A DNA stretch of 64,000 nt from Gemmatimonadota bacterium (lineage in GTDB: Bacteria > Gemmatimonadota > Gemmatimonadetes > Gemmatimonadales > Gemmatimonadaceae): the NCBI GenBank assembly GCA_028287305.1, contig JAQBPX010000004.1, positions 1 to 64,000 on the forward strand, in the 5' to 3' direction. Shown here one piece after another: positions 2,506 to 10,928 of the stretch. Below the pieces are notes generated by a model that saw only the letters and a list, made by a program, of their open reading frames with translations, searched no databases and had not been told where the DNA came from. The position numbers and the translations under genes are program-made. Position 1 is the stretch's first letter. Every line of letters begins with the position of its first letter.

Positions 2506-2556
2506 AGCTGCGGACGCTCCCAATAATTGCGCCAAGACATTGTCCTGCATAGACTT

Positions 2557-3495
2557 ATGACGCCAGCAGCGCGACTGATGTTTGCGGCCGCGATCGCCGC
2601 GGGCATCGGATCCGGACCGGCGCGCGCCGCAGGGCAGGGCGCGCCCGGTGTGGTGCTGCGACTGCCGGCCGGCACGGCGCAAATGGCCGAGGCGGGCAGC
2701 GGGGCACTCGCGCGAGGTGGTGAGGGGTTGTTTGTGAATCCCGCGCAGGCCGCGTACGAAACCGGCGCCAGCGCCAGCCTGCAGCGATGGCTGGAGCACT
2801 CGACGCTCGGCAGCCTCTCGGCGTCGATCCCCATGGGGGATGGCCGGCTGGCCGGCGCGGCGCGCGTGCTCGATTTTGGATCCATAGATGAAGTGGTCCC
2901 CGACGCCTCGACAGGTGGGCGCGATGGGCGGAGCACCGGAGACCGGCTCTCCGCCCGGGAGGTCGCCTGGACCGGCGGCTACGCGATGGCCATCCGATCC
3001 TTTGCGGTGGGCGCGAGCGTCACGTACGTGCAGCAGTCGGTGGCCGACCTCAATGCGAGCGGCGTGACGAGCGACGCGGGCGTCGCGTGGCGCGGGCCGC
3101 GCGACTGGAGGGTGTCGGTCGCTGCGCAGCAGCTCGGCGGGCGACTCTCGGGCGACCTGCGCTCGCAGCCATTTGCGAGTGCGCTGCGAGCGAGCGTGCA
3201 GGCGCCGGCGTTCACGCGGGATCGCGTGACGCTCGATGCGGCGGTCGAGATGCTCGCCGAGGAGCGCCAGCCCGGATCGGCGACGCTGGCGCTCGAGGCG
3301 CGCTGGCGGTCGCCGAGCGCGCTCACGCTGGTGGCGCGCGGCGGCGCGAGGGCGGGTGCGTCGACGGCGCTGCAGCAGCCGTACGCGGCGGGGCTGGCGC
3401 TCGAGTCGCCCATGCTCGGCGTGGAGTGGGCGGTGCAGCCGCTGCGTGACGGCCTCGGCTTCTCGCACCGGCTGGGACTGCGGTGGTCGCGATGA
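2557..3495 (+). CDS. PorV/PorQ-like outer-membrane protein
   Basis: 312 aa predicted outer-membrane protein. The ATG at 2557 is chosen over an in-frame TTG at 2527 because it opens directly into a Sec signal peptide (hydrophobic stretch AARLMFAAAIAAGIGSG, cleavage near ARA-AGQ). The mature part has the pattern of PorV/UPF0164 proteins: an early segment with GEGLFVNPA, then alternating amphipathic strands ending in aromatic or hydrophobic residues, and a final strand LGLRWSR. No catalytic motif is visible. Its stop overlaps the next gene's start by 4 nt (ATGA), so it is probably co-translated with the peptidase fusion downstream. Assignment rests on overall pattern, so the family is less certain than the location. 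Confidence 0.6.
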   Translation: MTPAARLMFAAAIAAGIGSGPARAAGQGAPGVVLRLPAGTAQMAEAGSGALARGGEGLFVNPAQAAYETGASASLQRWLEHSTLGSLSASIPMGDGRLAGAARVLDFGSIDEVVPDASTGGRDGRSTGDRLSAREVAWTGGYAMAIRSFAVGASVTYVQQSVADLNASGVTSDAGVAWRGPRDWRVSVAAQQLGGRLSGDLRSQPFASALRASVQAPAFTRDRVTLDAAVEMLAEERQPGSATLALEARWRSPSALTLVARGGARAGASTALQQPYAAGLALESPMLGVEWAVQPLRDGLGFSHRLGLRWSR

Positions 3496-5432
3496 CTCGC
3501 GCGCGTGCGTGGACGTTCGTGAAGCGCGCGCTGCAGCTGCTGGTGCTGCTCCTCGCGTGCTACCTGTTGCTCACTCCCACCGGGCATTACCTGCTGCGCG
3601 GCGCGTGGGAGGAGGGAAAGATCCTGGCGCACCGGAAGTCCATCGAGGCGATCGTGGCCGAGCCGGCGACGAAGCCCGCGGTGCGCGCGAAGCTGTCGAT
3701 GGTGCTGGCGGCGCGCGCCTTCGCGAAGGACAGCCTGCACCTCGATACGCGCAAGAGCTTCACGCAGTTCACGCAGCTCGAGCACGACACGCTCACGCTG
3801 CTGCTCTCCGGTGCGTACCGCGACCGCCTGCTGCCGAAGACGTGGTGGTTCCCCGTGGTGGGGCGCGTGCCGTACAAGGGGTACTTCGACTTTGCCGCGG
3901 CGAAGAAGGCGGCGGCGGAGCTCGACCACCAGGAGTACGACGTCCAGCTCCGCCCCGTCTCGGCGTTCAGCACGCTCGGCTTCTTCAACGACCCGCTGCT
4001 CTCGACCACGCTGCGCGCCGACTCCATGGACCTGTCGGACACGGTGATCCACGAGCTGCTGCACAACACCTTCTACGCGAGCGGGCAGACGGCGTTCAAT
4101 GAGTCGTTCGCGAACTTCGTGGGCGCGCGGGGCGCGGCGGCGTTCTTCCGGTCGCGGGGATCCGAGAAGGCCGCGGCGGAAGTCGAGGCTCGCTGGGCCG
4201 ACCAGAAGGTGCTCGCGACGTTCTGGCGCGCGCTCTACGTGTCGGTGGATTCGGCGTTCAAGGCGCATCCCGACAGCAAGCGCGATCGCCTGGTCGCGCG
4301 CGACACGTTGTTTGCGCGCGCCAGGCAGGAGCTGGTGTGGCACGTGGGGCCACAGCTGCGCACCATCGGCCCGCGCTCGCTCGAGCGCGCGGTGATCAAC
4401 AACGCCACGATCATGGCGCGGCGCCTCTACCTCACCGACGTCCAGCTGTTCGACGACGTGTGGGAGCGCGAGGGACGCGACCTGAACAGGGCGAAGTCGC
4501 GCATCATCGCGCTGGCGAAGGGCGACACGAAGGATCCGTATGGCGCGCTGCACCGCTTCGTGGATGCGCTGCCGCCCGGAGAGGGGAAGCTTGCGGTGGA
4601 TGGCGGGCGCATCTGGTACAAGGTGACGAAGGGGGGGAGCGGCGTTCCGCTCATCCTGCTGCACGGTGGTCCGGGCGTGTCGAGCTTCTACCTCAAGCCG
4701 TACGAGGACTTGAAGGACGACCGCACCGTGGTGCGCTACGACCAGCTGGGCTCGGGCAAGTCCGATGGACTCACCGACACCACGCGCATGACGATCGCGC
4801 ATTACGTGGAGGAGCTCGAGGCGCTGCGCGCGCACCTGGGGCTCGACAAGGTGGCGCTGCTGGGGCACTCGTGGGGTTCGATCATGGCCGTGGAGTACTA
4901 CCAGAGGTATCCCCAGCACGTGGCGGCCATGGTGCTGCAGGGCGTGGCGCTCGACATACCCGCGTGGACGCGCAACACGCGCAAGCTGGTGGCCACGCTG
5001 TCGGACAGTTCGAGGCGCGCGATCGCCTTGCACGAGGCCGATCGCAACTACGATGCGCCGAGCTTCCTCGCGGCGAGCGACGAGTACTTCGGGAAGTACG
5101 TGTCGCGCCATCCCGTGGCGGCCGACGGTGACAGCATCGTGCACAGCATGAACCAGAAGCTCTACCTGTACATGGAAGGGCCGACCGAGTTCACGATCAC
5201 CGGCACCACCAAGGACTACGACGCCACGCCGTTCCTGCACACCATCAAGGTGCCCACGCTCTACACCGTGGGTGAGTTCGACGAAGCCGACGTCGCCACC
5301 ACGCGGCGACTGGCGAGGTTCACGCCGGGAGCGCAGTTCGCGGAGATCATGGGGGCGGCGCACCTCAGCATGTGGGATGCGAGGGCAGAGAACCTGCGCG
5401 TGGTGAGGGAGTTCCTGAGAAGGGTCAGGTAG
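3492..5432 (+). CDS. Fused membrane-anchored zinc aminopeptidase-like / proline iminopeptidase
   Basis: 646 aa with two enzyme modules. Residues ~8-28 form one membrane segment (ALQLLVLLLACYLLL). Residues ~30-350 resemble the COG4324/PF10023 'predicted aminopeptidase' family: HELLH (His187, Glu188, His191) followed by NESFANF (Glu204) are the expected zinc ligands and catalytic Glu. Residues ~360-646 are an S33 alpha/beta hydrolase of the proline iminopeptidase type: oxyanion motif HGGPG, YDQLGSGKSD, nucleophile elbow GHSWGS (Ser460), then the acid in VGEFDEAD and the His in AAHLSMWD. Start is the ATG at 3492, overlapping the upstream stop; a GTG at 3483 is possible. There is no frameshift between the modules, so this is a real fusion. 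Likely role: trimming N-terminal residues from peptides at the inner membrane (inference). Confidence 0.85.
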   Translation: MTRARAWTFVKRALQLLVLLLACYLLLTPTGHYLLRGAWEEGKILAHRKSIEAIVAEPATKPAVRAKLSMVLAARAFAKDSLHLDTRKSFTQFTQLEHDTLTLLLSGAYRDRLLPKTWWFPVVGRVPYKGYFDFAAAKKAAAELDHQEYDVQLRPVSAFSTLGFFNDPLLSTTLRADSMDLSDTVIHELLHNTFYASGQTAFNESFANFVGARGAAAFFRSRGSEKAAAEVEARWADQKVLATFWRALYVSVDSAFKAHPDSKRDRLVARDTLFARARQELVWHVGPQLRTIGPRSLERAVINNATIMARRLYLTDVQLFDDVWEREGRDLNRAKSRIIALAKGDTKDPYGALHRFVDALPPGEGKLAVDGGRIWYKVTKGGSGVPLILLHGGPGVSSFYLKPYEDLKDDRTVVRYDQLGSGKSDGLTDTTRMTIAHYVEELEALRAHLGLDKVALLGHSWGSIMAVEYYQRYPQHVAAMVLQGVALDIPAWTRNTRKLVATLSDSSRRAIALHEADRNYDAPSFLAASDEYFGKYVSRHPVAADGDSIVHSMNQKLYLYMEGPTEFTITGTTKDYDATPFLHTIKVPTLYTVGEFDEADVATTRRLARFTPGAQFAEIMGAAHLSMWDARAENLRVVREFLRRVR

Positions 5433-5609: not shown

Positions 5610-7697
5610 CTACCCCCCAAACCGCTTCTTCATCATCGCCCGCAGGTCGATGGCGGGGAGCATCGGATCCACCGCGGGTGCGGGCGCGGCGACCGGATCC
5701 TCGCCCATCGTGACGCGCTGCATCTTCTCGCGCACGCCGCGATCGAGGAATCGCGAGAGCTGGTCCATGGAGTAGTCACTGCTGCGGCGCGACGAGTACA
5801 CGTTCAGCGGATACGTGCAATAGAGGTGATTCCGCGCGCGCGTCATCGCGACGTACATCAGCCGGCGCTCCTCCTCCAGCTGCGCCTCGTCGTCGATGCA
5901 GCGCGCCGACGGGAACCAGCCGTCCACGCACCAGATGAGGAACACGGCGTCCCACTCCTTGCCCTTGGCGGAGTGCGCGGTGGAGAGCACCAGGCAGTCG
6001 TCCTCGCTGTCGCCCCCGCCCGAGAGGTCCTGCGTGTTCTGTGGCGGCTCGAGCGCCAGCGCCGCGAGGAACGCCGAGCGACTGGGGTAGCCCGCGGCGA
6101 TCGTGCGCAGCTGGTCGAGGTCGGCCAGCCGGGCGTCGGGGCGGTCGTAGCGCTCCTTGAGCAATCCGTCATACAGGTCGCGGATGATGCCGATCTCCTC
6201 GGCGATCCCCTTCTCCTGCGCGGTCGTCTCGCCGGCGCGCCGGCGACGCAGCGCGCGCAGCATGCCCGAGAGCTTCGCGTGCGCGTCGCGGGCGCGGGGC
6301 GGGGGCGCGTAGTGCGTGAACGCGTCCGGGTCCCAGCCGCGCTCCTGCATGTTGGCCATGATCTGCCGGGCGGTGACGTCGCCGATGCCGGGCATCATCA
6401 TGAAGATGCGGTACCAGCTCACTTCGTCGCGCGGGTTCTCGATCACGCGCAGGAACGCCAGCACGTCCTTGACGTGACTCGCCTCGAGGAACTTGAGCCC
6501 GCCCCACTTCTCGAAGGGGATCTTGCGATTCACCAGTTCGATCTCGAGGTCGGCCGACATGTAGCCGGCGCGGAAGAGCACGGCCATCTCCTTCAATGGA
6601 GTGCCCTCCTCGTGGAGGGCGAGGATGCGGTCCACGATGAAGCGCGTCTGCTGCGACTCGTCGCGCGCCGTCACGAGCCAGGGCATCTCGCCCCCGGTGC
6701 GCTCCGTCCAGAGGTTCTTGGTGAAGCGCTGCTCGGCGCGCGAGATGAGCGTGTTGGTGGTGTCGAGGATCGGCTGCGTCGAGCGGTAGTTGCGCTCGAG
6801 CGTGACGAGCGTGACGCCCGGGAACTGCCTGGGGAAGTCGAGGATGTTCCGGAAGTTGGCGCCGCGGAAGGAGTAGATCCCCTGCGCGTCGTCGCCGACC
6901 ACCGTCAGGTTGCGGTGCCCGCTGCACATCGCCTGGAGGATGCGCGACTGCAGGATGTTGGTGTCCTGGTACTCGTCCACCAGCACGTGGTCGTAGAGCG
7001 CGCGGATCTGGCTGGCGAGCGACTCGCTCGACTCGAGCATGAGCAGCCAGTAGAGGAGCAGGTCGTCGTAGTCGAGCAGGTTCCGCTCCTGCTTGCGGCT
7101 CGTGTAGTCGGCGAAGAGGCGGCCGATCTCCTGCTGCCAGTCGAGGAACTGCGGGTATTCCGCGTGGAGGAGGTCGTCCACGGGGATCTCGGTGTTCACG
7201 TGCCGACTATAGATGTGGTGCAGCGTCTCCTTCTTCGGGAAGCGCTTCTCCTTCGAGCCGAATCCCAGCGCGCCGCGGGAGAGCTGCATGAGGTCCTCGG
7301 CGTCGCCCTGGTCGAGGATGGAGAAATCCTTCGGCAGGCCTGCGGAGGGGCCGAACTGGCGCAGCAGGCGGTGGCCGCTGGAGTGGAAGGTGCCGCCGTG
7401 GACGCGGGCGGTGGCCGACCCCACCAGGCGCTCGGCGCGCGACAGCATCTCGCCCGCGGCGCGGCGGGTGAAGGTGAGGACGAGGATGCGCTCGGGGGGC
7501 GTGCCGGTGTCGATGAGGTGCGCCACGCGGTAGACGAGCGTGCGCGTCTTGCCGGTGCCGGCGCCGGCGATCACGAGGAGGGGCCCGCCGGGGTGGATGG
7601 CCGCGCGGAGCTGCTCGGGGTTGAGGTCGGTGGAGAGGTCGCGCGTTCCCCCCTCGACGGTGCGTGGCTTGGGGATGTAGAGGCGGGTGTCGGTCAC
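5610..7697 (-). CDS. UvrD/PcrA-family ATP-dependent DNA helicase
   Basis: 695 aa superfamily 1A helicase (3'-5' translocase). Motifs in order: Q-motif region DLNPEQLRAA; Walker A GAGTGKT (45-51); Ia VLTFTRRAAGEM; II VLVDEYQDTN; III VVGDDAQGIYSFRGA; IV LERNYRST; V LSTAHSAKGKEWDAVFL; VI RRLMYVAMTRAR. All catalytic residues are present. It is a little shorter than typical UvrD (about 720-730 aa) and has no RecB-type nuclease domain, so it fits a UvrD/PcrA/Rep-like repair or replication helicase rather than AddA or RecB. GTG start at 7697; a -10 box lies 6 nt upstream, again suggesting a leaderless mRNA. Neighbours give no functional clue. Confidence 0.93.
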   Translation of the reverse strand: MTDTRLYIPKPRTVEGGTRDLSTDLNPEQLRAAIHPGGPLLVIAGAGTGKTRTLVYRVAHLIDTGTPPERILVLTFTRRAAGEMLSRAERLVGSATARVHGGTFHSSGHRLLRQFGPSAGLPKDFSILDQGDAEDLMQLSRGALGFGSKEKRFPKKETLHHIYSRHVNTEIPVDDLLHAEYPQFLDWQQEIGRLFADYTSRKQERNLLDYDDLLLYWLLMLESSESLASQIRALYDHVLVDEYQDTNILQSRILQAMCSGHRNLTVVGDDAQGIYSFRGANFRNILDFPRQFPGVTLVTLERNYRSTQPILDTTNTLISRAEQRFTKNLWTERTGGEMPWLVTARDESQQTRFIVDRILALHEEGTPLKEMAVLFRAGYMSADLEIELVNRKIPFEKWGGLKFLEASHVKDVLAFLRVIENPRDEVSWYRIFMMMPGIGDVTARQIMANMQERGWDPDAFTHYAPPPRARDAHAKLSGMLRALRRRRAGETTAQEKGIAEEIGIIRDLYDGLLKERYDRPDARLADLDQLRTIAAGYPSRSAFLAALALEPPQNTQDLSGGGDSEDDCLVLSTAHSAKGKEWDAVFLIWCVDGWFPSARCIDDEAQLEEERRLMYVAMTRARNHLYCTYPLNVYSSRRSSDYSMDQLSRFLDRGVREKMQRVTMGEDPVAAPAPAVDPMLPAIDLRAMMKKRFGG

Positions 7698-7733: not shown

Positions 7734-8195
7734 GGCCAGCGAGTGACCGGGGAGGGCGTTACCCGGTACGGGCCTGTGCGTCCTGATAGCGTTTGGTGGA
7801 CGGTGTGTTCGCGAGAGCGAGCACGACTGTACAGGAAGTAAACACTTTGTCGTATTGTGACCGTTCTCACTGGCCGCGAGTCATTGGCGGTGCTACACTG
7901 TCTGGCGGTCGACAACTGAAAGTCTGGAGGTGCGGGCGGTGACGCCAGGTAGACCCTGATTGGAGGGGTTTTGCCTTGACGGTGTTGCCCGTGGTCCCTA
8001 GGTTCTGCATTCTGGCACTGGAACACCTGTTCCAGCGCTAGCTGTGTTTGTAGCGAATAGTTGTTGTTGAATGAGGGGAGTGTCGCCACCGCTCCCCGAG
8101 CGATCCGGGAAATACCCGGCGCCGGTCGACTGGAAGTGGCAGTGCGTTTCCGCGGTTAGTTGCAGTTCCCACCCTTCATCTACCCTGGGGGTAAG
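7734..8195 (+). promoter_or_regulatory. Long upstream/leader region of the surface lipoprotein gene
   Basis: About 460 nt without a convincing gene. The best promoter for the downstream gene is TTGACG (7976-7981), 17 nt, TAGGTT (7999-8004), which would give a ~185 nt leader. In that leader a small hairpin (ATCCGGG/CCCGG around 8104-8118) is visible, and a GGGG Shine-Dalgarno run ends 5 nt before the ATG at 8196. The composition is less GC-rich than the flanking genes. No known riboswitch motif was recognised. Confidence 0.4.
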
Positions 8196-10928
8196 ATGGA
8201 TTCCGTAACTCGTAAGATTGTTGCGAGTGTCATTGTTCTCGCTGGCCTCGCGGCCTGCGGCGACAAGGTCACCACGCAGCCTGGTACGACCACGACCGTC
8301 ACGCAGACGGGCACCACGACGACGACGCCGCCCGGCACCACCGTGCAGTCCGTCACGGTCACCCCGGCGAACGTCTCGCTGAACATTGGCCAGACGCAGC
8401 CGATCGTTGCCGTCGTGAACGCTGATGCTGGCGTCACCGACCGCACCGTCACCTGGACCTCGAACAACCCGACGGTCGCCACGGTCTCCGCGACCGGCAC
8501 CGTGACGGCCGTTGCTTCCGGTACCGCCGTGATCTCGGCCGCCGCCAAGGCGGATCCGACCAAGATCGGCACCTCGACCATCCTCGTCGGCGCCGTCGTT
8601 CAGCCGACCATCCAGCTCGGCCAGGTCAACCAGCTCGGCGCTCCGGCGATTCTCGGCAACATCGCGAATCAGCTCGACGTCGTCCTGAACGTTGAGCCGG
8701 GCAACCAGACGATCAAGACCGTCGACCTGATCCTCAACTGCGGCGCCGGCGACCAGATCGTCGCGACGCAGACGATCTCCGCCGACAAGACCGGCATCGA
8801 TGCCGAGGCCGCTTCGGCCCCCGTCACGCTGTCGTTCAACACCGCGCAGCTCAAGGCTGATGGCACGCCGCTGTTCCTCAACGGCAACTGCACGCTGAAG
8901 AGCCAGCTGACCACCGCGACCGGCACCAAGATTCTCTCGCAGAACTCCGTGCAGATCACGCTGAACAACGTCAGCAAGTACACCTACAGCTACACGACGT
9001 CCGCCACGCCCGCCGTCTCGGCGCTGGATGGCCTCGTCCGTCAGGGCGGCAACACCACCCTGTCGCTGACCGGCGTGAACTACGCCACGAGCGGCGCGCT
9101 TGCGTCGATCACGGTCACCTGGCTGGGTCGCACGACGACTGCGACGCCGGGCACCGGCACGCAGACGTTCTCGATCTCGTTCCCGAATGACTCGACCAAG
9201 ACCCCGGGCTACGGCGTCTGCACCACGAACTGCACGGGCACGTACCAGTACGCCACGGCTGGCGTTGCTGAAGCGGCCCCGGTCGTCACCGCGTCGATCG
9301 ACGCGAATGGCAACCAGTCGTTCGCCGGCACCGCCAGCACGTCGAACCCGGCGCTTCGCCTGGACAACGTCTCCCCGGCAGTGCTGACCTCGGCGATCAT
9401 CAACTCGGCCGCCGGCTCGAACAACTACGTCAACGGCGCCTACGTTCAGCAGGCCGCTGGCAAGATCGTCATCGCCGCTGGTGCGGGCGACAACGCCTTC
9501 GCCAACAGCCAGCTGACGGTCAAGATCGGCTACGCTGCACCGGCCGCCTTCACGGCGCTCGTCGGCGGCACGGGCGTTGGCCCGGTCTGCTCGACCACCG
9601 GCCTGACCATGGTCGACCAGGTCAACCAGATCCCGAACTCGACGGCCAACAACGCCTACCAGGCTCGTGTGTTCGTCTCGGATCCGATCGGTAACGTCCG
9701 CTGCGCCGACCTGTCGGTCAGCAACGGTGGCACTCCTGCCGGTAACTTCTTCGGCATCGATCGCATCAACCCGATCAGCGCCATCGCGTCGCCGGCTGCC
9801 AACACCGCCGTCGCCGTGGGCACGAACTACGTCTTCACCTTCCAGGACACGATCTCGGGCTTCAACCCGGCCGCCCCGGTTCGCGTGACGCTGGTTCGTA
9901 ACTTCACGACCAACTTCGGAGCCTCCGGCACGCCGGCTGACTGCGTCAAGGGCGCGATTGTCTCCGGCGCTTGCACGCCGGTTTCGAATGGTGCTACGCT
10001 GAACGTCAATGGCGGCACGGGCGTCGAGGGCTACTACACGGTCACTGAGTTCGCTCAGGATCAGGCCACCAATGTCTCGACCACCAACACCCGCACCAAC
10101 CTGTACGACGTGACCGCTCCGGCTGTCGGCGCGCTCTCCATGTCGCCGTCGCCGGCTCCGCTGGCTTCGTCGAGCGTCGGCCTCGTTGGTTCGACGACGG
10201 TCTCCGGCACGGCCACGGACAACGTGGACCTCGCCTCGGCCGCCGGCACGCTGGACTACGCCACGACCACGTACGCGGCGAAGTTCTCCCAGGGCTCCGT
10301 CTCGATCGGCAACTCGCCGACGTTCGATTCGAACGTCTCGACTTCCGCTCCGGCGTCGCTCGCCTACAGCAACATCTACCGTCGCCTCCAGAGCACCGAC
10401 GCCAACGGCCTCATCGCCGCTGGTGGCGCTGTCCCGAATGCGAACGTGACCGCGACGGATGCGGCCGGTAACGTCTCCACTGCATCGAACCTGCCGATCG
10501 CGGTCTCCGCGACCGGCGCTGCCGATGTCAACGTTGGCGATTCGCTCCTCGTGAAGAACAGCACGACGCCGGTTTCCAAGACCGGCACCAACAGCACCAC
10601 GCTCACCGCCGAGGTTCACACGGCGACGGTGGCCGGTGCCAACCAGCCCTTCACGCAGGTGAACTTCTACGTGACGAATGCCGCCGGCACCCAGCTCACG
10701 CTGATCGGCAGCCAGTCGCTGGCCGGCGTGACGGATGACAACTCGGTTGTCCCGACGGGCCGCCGTATCTGGTCGTACACGCTGTCGGGCGTGACTGGGG
10801 CGCAGCTCGGCCTCAGCTCCGGTTCGACGACGGGTACGACCCGCAACATCTACGTCATCGGCATCACGTCCGCCGGTAACGCGGTCCTGAACTCGGGCCA
10901 GGTTGTGCAGGTGACGGTCGGCGCGTAA
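8196..10928 (+). CDS. Large surface lipoprotein with BIG2/Ig-like domains
   Basis: 910 aa. Lipoprotein signal peptide with lipobox LAAC (Cys22), then a Thr-rich tether and a bacterial Ig-like (BIG2) domain at about residues 45-125 (VQSVTVTPANVSLNIGQTQ ... TVTWTSNNPTVATV ... GTAVISA). The rest is Thr/Ala/Asn/Gly-rich beta-type sequence with several further Ig-like repeats (for example DNVDLASAAGTLDY and ATDAAGNVSTASNLPI), typical of a long surface stalk. ATG at 8196 is preferred over an in-frame TTG at 8160 because it follows GGGG and starts the lipoprotein signal. Codon choice differs from neighbours, with more GGT, GCT and GTT, which suggests strong expression. It ends at a strong terminator. 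Function is probably adhesion or cell-surface structure; no enzyme motif is seen. Confidence 0.85.
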   Translation: MDSVTRKIVASVIVLAGLAACGDKVTTQPGTTTTVTQTGTTTTTPPGTTVQSVTVTPANVSLNIGQTQPIVAVVNADAGVTDRTVTWTSNNPTVATVSATGTVTAVASGTAVISAAAKADPTKIGTSTILVGAVVQPTIQLGQVNQLGAPAILGNIANQLDVVLNVEPGNQTIKTVDLILNCGAGDQIVATQTISADKTGIDAEAASAPVTLSFNTAQLKADGTPLFLNGNCTLKSQLTTATGTKILSQNSVQITLNNVSKYTYSYTTSATPAVSALDGLVRQGGNTTLSLTGVNYATSGALASITVTWLGRTTTATPGTGTQTFSISFPNDSTKTPGYGVCTTNCTGTYQYATAGVAEAAPVVTASIDANGNQSFAGTASTSNPALRLDNVSPAVLTSAIINSAAGSNNYVNGAYVQQAAGKIVIAAGAGDNAFANSQLTVKIGYAAPAAFTALVGGTGVGPVCSTTGLTMVDQVNQIPNSTANNAYQARVFVSDPIGNVRCADLSVSNGGTPAGNFFGIDRINPISAIASPAANTAVAVGTNYVFTFQDTISGFNPAAPVRVTLVRNFTTNFGASGTPADCVKGAIVSGACTPVSNGATLNVNGGTGVEGYYTVTEFAQDQATNVSTTNTRTNLYDVTAPAVGALSMSPSPAPLASSSVGLVGSTTVSGTATDNVDLASAAGTLDYATTTYAAKFSQGSVSIGNSPTFDSNVSTSAPASLAYSNIYRRLQSTDANGLIAAGGAVPNANVTATDAAGNVSTASNLPIAVSATGAADVNVGDSLLVKNSTTPVSKTGTNSTTLTAEVHTATVAGANQPFTQVNFYVTNAAGTQLTLIGSQSLAGVTDDNSVVPTGRRIWSYTLSGVTGAQLGLSSGSTTGTTRNIYVIGITSAGNAVLNSGQVVQVTVGA

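Follow-up and report, generated by a model that had tools for sequence, protein, structure and literature searches.

A PF10023 putative aminopeptidase fused to a proline-iminopeptidase-type hydrolase in a single Gemmatimonadota genome

The window, a 64,000-nucleotide stretch of DNA from a Gemmatimonadota bacterium near Gemmatimonadaceae, carries a gene of 646 codons (3492-5432, + strand) that encodes an N-terminal membrane anchor, a PF10023 putative aminopeptidase domain and a proline-iminopeptidase-type alpha/beta hydrolase domain. This is a new architecture built from two known families and occurring in a single genome. It is likely that a lineage-specific fusion produced an anchored chain whose two catalytic domains would lie outside the cytoplasm and serve peptide trimming and the removal of N-terminal proline.

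Domains and membrane anchor of the fusion protein

The gene forms one frame from ATG to TAG with no internal stop. The G+C contents of the three codon positions were coding-like and similar in the two halves, at 0.65/0.46/0.94 in the PF10023 half and 0.62/0.44/0.91 in the hydrolase half. A preliminary description of this DNA had proposed that two unrelated peptidase-type domains lie in a single N-terminally anchored chain, and the one frame with two strong domain matches agrees with this; the positions it gave for HELLH (187-191) and S460 were also correct. Judging from the intact catalytic residues described below, each domain may be an active peptidase. A structure prediction for four sequences (that of the window and L061-L063) gave a mean pLDDT of 40.5 and a pTM of 0.28, values too low for the model to be relied on.

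The first domain (residues 33-345; 3588-4526, +) matched PF10023 with an E value of 9.2e-82 and a score of 275 bits against a gathering cut-off of 25, covering profile positions 2-314 of 322. It contains the zinc-binding motif HELLH (residues 187-191; 4050-4064, +) and, within FNESF, E204 (4101-4103, +), the presumed third zinc ligand. In an alignment with the PF10023 domains of relatives, H187, E188, H191 and E204 were all present in 94/94 distinct sequences, so that the loss of zinc ligands in homologues, a possibility raised in the preliminary description, does not apply. All 40 columns with a conservation of 97% or more among the relatives are also kept in the fusion. The domain had originally been called COG4324-like, a name under which we found no paper; the family according to Pfam is PF10023 (Aminopep, formerly DUF2265). 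A table in PMC3650047 includes DUF2265/PF10023 among zincin-like families and names the leukotriene A4 hydrolase catalytic domain beside it. The literature found under PF10023 or DUF2265 comprised a computational survey and no assay, and "aminopeptidase" is a prediction for this family. Likewise, a 26-sequence profile searched against the PDB revealed no solved structure for PF10023, and its best match, a histidine kinase fragment at E 0.19, was judged to be due to chance.

The second domain (residues 363-643; 4578-5420, +) matched the proline-iminopeptidase-family hydrolase model TIGR01250 (E 3.7e-68; 230 bits, curated cut-off 168), and the hydrolase half also matched Pfam Abhydrolase_1 (E 1e-28). 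TIGR01250 is a broad subfamily model, and the specific proline iminopeptidase models scored below their equivalog cut-offs (NF045948, 203/500 bits; NF045945, 157/400; TIGR01249, 69/260). Since these stricter enzyme models were not reached, the specificity for proline is uncertain. Among solved structures, the nearest relatives were 1mt3/1mtz (E 3.5e-43), both entries for a proline iminopeptidase, which we take to be a Thermoplasma enzyme. The nucleophile S460 in GHSWG (4869-4871, +), the triad acid D597 (5280-5285, +, together with E598) and the triad histidine H624 (5361-5363, +) align to S105, D244 and H271 of 1mt3, presumably its catalytic triad. In addition, E566 (5187-5189, +) and E598 align to E213 and E245 of 1mt3, two residues that we assume bind the free N-terminus of the substrate. 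Among 42 distinct aligned relatives, nearly all from Gemmatimonadota, H391, E566, D597 and H624 occurred in 42/42 and S460 and E598 in 41/42. The fusion keeps 30/31 columns conserved in at least 97% of these sequences, the exception being K380, which is Gly in the relatives. The fusion has in common with TIGR01250 and 1mt3 the whole domain, the catalytic triad and the two glutamates, whereas it differs in the joining of this domain to the C-terminus of a zincin, through which it would be anchored in the membrane.

The most hydrophobic 19-residue stretch of the protein comprises residues 9-27 (3516-3572, +), with a mean Kyte-Doolittle value of 2.0, and no stretch past residue 40 exceeds 1.6. 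Basic residues precede this segment and sit at its start. This arrangement, in which the only hydrophobic segment is N-terminal and begins with basic residues, is that of a type II membrane protein, and the segment is a predicted anchor. A lipobox Cys, the mark of a lipoprotein, is lacking at the end of the signal: position 32 is His in the fusion, and the alignment placed a lipobox-like Cys there in 23/94 PF10023 relatives, in contexts such as TPTGCYLSR, and Arg in 39/94. C23 of the fusion, a residue within the hydrophobic core, shows no conservation among the relatives. The PF10023 family thus appears to have both lipoprotein-like and helix-anchored members, with the fusion seemingly of the helix-anchored type, and the charge distribution suggests that its C-terminus lies outside the cytoplasm.

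The junction and its genomic setting

Comparison with relatives placed the junction, ALHRFVDALPP (4545-4577, +), at about the end of PF10023 proteins and about the domain start of stand-alone hydrolases. The PF10023 matches of relatives mostly end at residues 340-366, and the hydrolase matches begin at about 356-362. Native PF10023 proteins stop shortly past a KDPFGALREWV-like sequence, and stand-alone hydrolase domains open with LPAGEAYLA, LGPGEAMLA or similar. At the join, the fusion reads KDPYGALHRFVDA-LPPGEG, where LPPGEG resembles these openings; the sequence across the join is 'KDPYGALHRFVDALPPGEGKLA'. As the end motif of PF10023 and the start motif of the hydrolase meet here, the join lies at a natural protein end and the start of a mature domain, with little or no linker.

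Family searches identified dnaE (DNA polymerase III alpha; 1-2469, −, cut by the window edge) as the conserved left flank and a UvrD/PcrA-type helicase gene (5610-7697, −) as the conserved right flank. Thirteen PF10023 loci from relatives had longer flanks. In 10 of them dnaE was found no more than about 3.5 kb away on the corresponding side; the helicase was the immediate neighbour of PF10023 in 10 and lay about 5.6 kb away in one further locus. No hydrolase was detected in any of the 13 by tblastn (E 1e-6). At the fusion locus, the hydrolase coding sequence separates the PF10023 domain from the helicase gene, and the presence of both flanks indicates that the hydrolase was gained in place.

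The start of the fusion gene overlaps (ATGA) a gene for a PorQ/PorV-like protein (2527-3495, +), which matched the PorQ model with E 1.4e-10, below the cut-off. Translational coupling of the two genes is possible. A similar gene upstream of PF10023 was seen only in L062 and L063 among the 13 loci. Beyond the helicase, a 922 aa frame with a lipoprotein-like start occupies 8160-10928, and similar frames are found beyond the helicase in several relatives.

Rarity and origin of the fusion

Matches to the fusion were found across the family, order and class to which the source genome belongs. No second fusion was found among 179 family genomes, and among the matches listed both halves were covered only in the source genome; the best single match in any other family genome had an E value of 2e-143, versus 0 in the source genome. 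When the hydrolase half was searched against 395 Gemmatimonadota genomes, 42 matches (E ≤ 1e-60) were obtained in 39 genomes, including the source genome, and profiles of both domains found the two in one frame only in the window among all 42 places. Similarly, among 117 PF10023 loci, a count that includes duplicates and three copies of the window, more than 60 residues followed the domain only in the window. The other PF10023 copies whose frames were examined resemble the fusion in their near-full match to the model, the HExxH with a downstream NE and the N-terminal anchor, but stop within 60 residues past the domain, whereas the fusion runs on into the hydrolase. The claim that the architecture is rare is therefore well founded for the genomes searched (179 of the family; 395 and 249 of the phylum), in which the source genome stands alone. 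A frameshift splitting the domains in other strains, also envisaged in the preliminary description, is not the case; in relatives each domain is encoded by its own gene, and the two genes lie at different loci.

PF10023 itself was present in 227/249 sampled genomes of the phylum. It is nearly always a single copy per Gemmatimonadota genome and, in the loci read, usually lies beside dnaE and the UvrD/PcrA-type helicase. Long PF10023 frames, of up to 2013 aa in the family and up to 1400 aa in the phylum, were suspected to be further fusions. In the 20 that were fetched, which exclude the longest (family frame G065), the extra length precedes the domain and the tail past it is at most 55 aa. Among plasmids and phages, no record had one place covering 80% of the query. 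The best 40 of 379 plasmid records match the hydrolase half, and one record (Bernardetia) matches PF10023. A Sinorhizobium plasmid match starting at query residue 289 (H10), considered as a fusion, proved to be a 312 aa frame with the hydrolase alone. Three phage records matched partially, in the hydrolase only, and the viral contigs scanned contained no relative. Literature searches found nothing on Gemmatimonadetes with proline iminopeptidase or on fusions of two peptidase domains, and those on proline iminopeptidase/lipoprotein/periplasm and on tricorn-type enzymes found nothing evidently on point.

The stand-alone hydrolases are a patchy Gemmatimonadota family of lipoprotein-type proline-iminopeptidase hydrolases with a family-mixed phylogeny (L065-L093 and L112-L123). 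A strict lipobox rule assigned a lipoprotein-type signal to 28 of 40 distinct stand-alone proteins, and inspection by eye to 37, two of the others looking like ordinary secreted signals and one being ambiguous. These hydrolases (for example L101:5148-6134, 63% identical) and the fusion have the TIGR01250 domain and probably the compartment in common; they differ in that the stand-alone proteins have their own lipoprotein signal and a separate gene, whereas the hydrolase of the fusion would be anchored via the zincin. The stand-alone proteins are mostly lipoproteins, so the fusion appears to exchange the export anchor for a different one. No shared neighbourhood was evident in gene calls around eight of the stand-alone hydrolases.

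In the origin that we favour, an ancestral gene for a membrane-anchored PF10023 zincin, located between dnaE and the UvrD/PcrA-type helicase gene, would have been extended, at the native C-terminus of its product, by the mature catalytic domain of a hydrolase of the proline-iminopeptidase type; in relatives this exported hydrolase is a separate lipoprotein. The product would be a single chain held by its N-terminal helix, in the topology predicted above. The confinement of the fusion to one genome, and the 39 contigs of its assembly, raise the alternative that two genes were stitched together in a draft genome. However, the genes flanking the locus, dnaE to the left and the helicase to the right, match those in relatives; an artefact would therefore need two independent misjoins, exactly in frame and at the native domain boundary. 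Together with the similar codon-position G+C of the halves, this makes such an artefact very improbable. As for the source of the hydrolase domain, we give about even chances to the horizontal transfer of a lipoprotein gene into the lineage, as opposed to the rearrangement of a vertically inherited copy. The source genome has no second close copy, the best having 28% identity, and in a tree the hydrolase domain of the fusion clusters (support 97/88) with a hydrolase belonging to a different family of the order, the surrounding group being a mixture of families; both observations favour transfer. On the other hand, the tree is deep and partly unresolved (12/40 inner branches), and patchy loss could yield the same picture. 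The mixing of families in the tree would fit either transfer or repeated loss.

Possible function

Read most economically, the lineage-specific fusion would be a peptide-processing enzyme that is exported and tethered to the membrane, with the zincin and the proline-clearing exopeptidase sharing one compartment. The zincin domain would probably trim or cut small periplasmic peptides, and the hydrolase domain would probably take off a proline, or some other residue, whose presence at the N-terminus blocks further trimming. It is plausible that the two domains trim proline-containing peptides jointly. The stronger version, a tethered two-step exopeptidase in which the zincin trims peptides, stops at proline are cleared by the proline-specific domain, and proline-rich peptides are consequently degraded in the periplasm without release between steps, seems unlikely. 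A serious rival, to which we give a somewhat less than even chance, is a genuine fusion whose domains share a tether without cooperating, the hydrolase keeping an old, possibly non-peptidase job such as ester or amide hydrolysis with its anchor exchanged. The breadth of the TIGR01250 subfamily is compatible with this rival, as are the lack of an evident shared neighbourhood around the eight stand-alone hydrolases inspected and their occurrence in a patchy minority of genomes (39/395 at E ≤ 1e-60). Against it, the residues aligned to those of 1mt3 that we presume to contact the N-terminus of the substrate are kept in all or all but one of the relatives (E566 and E598, respectively, as counted above).

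The fusion partner provides a functional hint, as it suggests an exported peptide-trimming role for the near-universal PF10023. Although the wider importance of a single-genome event is limited, the fusion illustrates how joining to another protein can give a lipoprotein domain a new anchor, apparently without a change of compartment. A separate observation on anchoring comes from one family, whose PF10023 proteins (N-termini of L012-L059) carry either a lipobox-like Cys or Arg/His at the same position, apparently reflecting a switch between lipid and helix anchoring.
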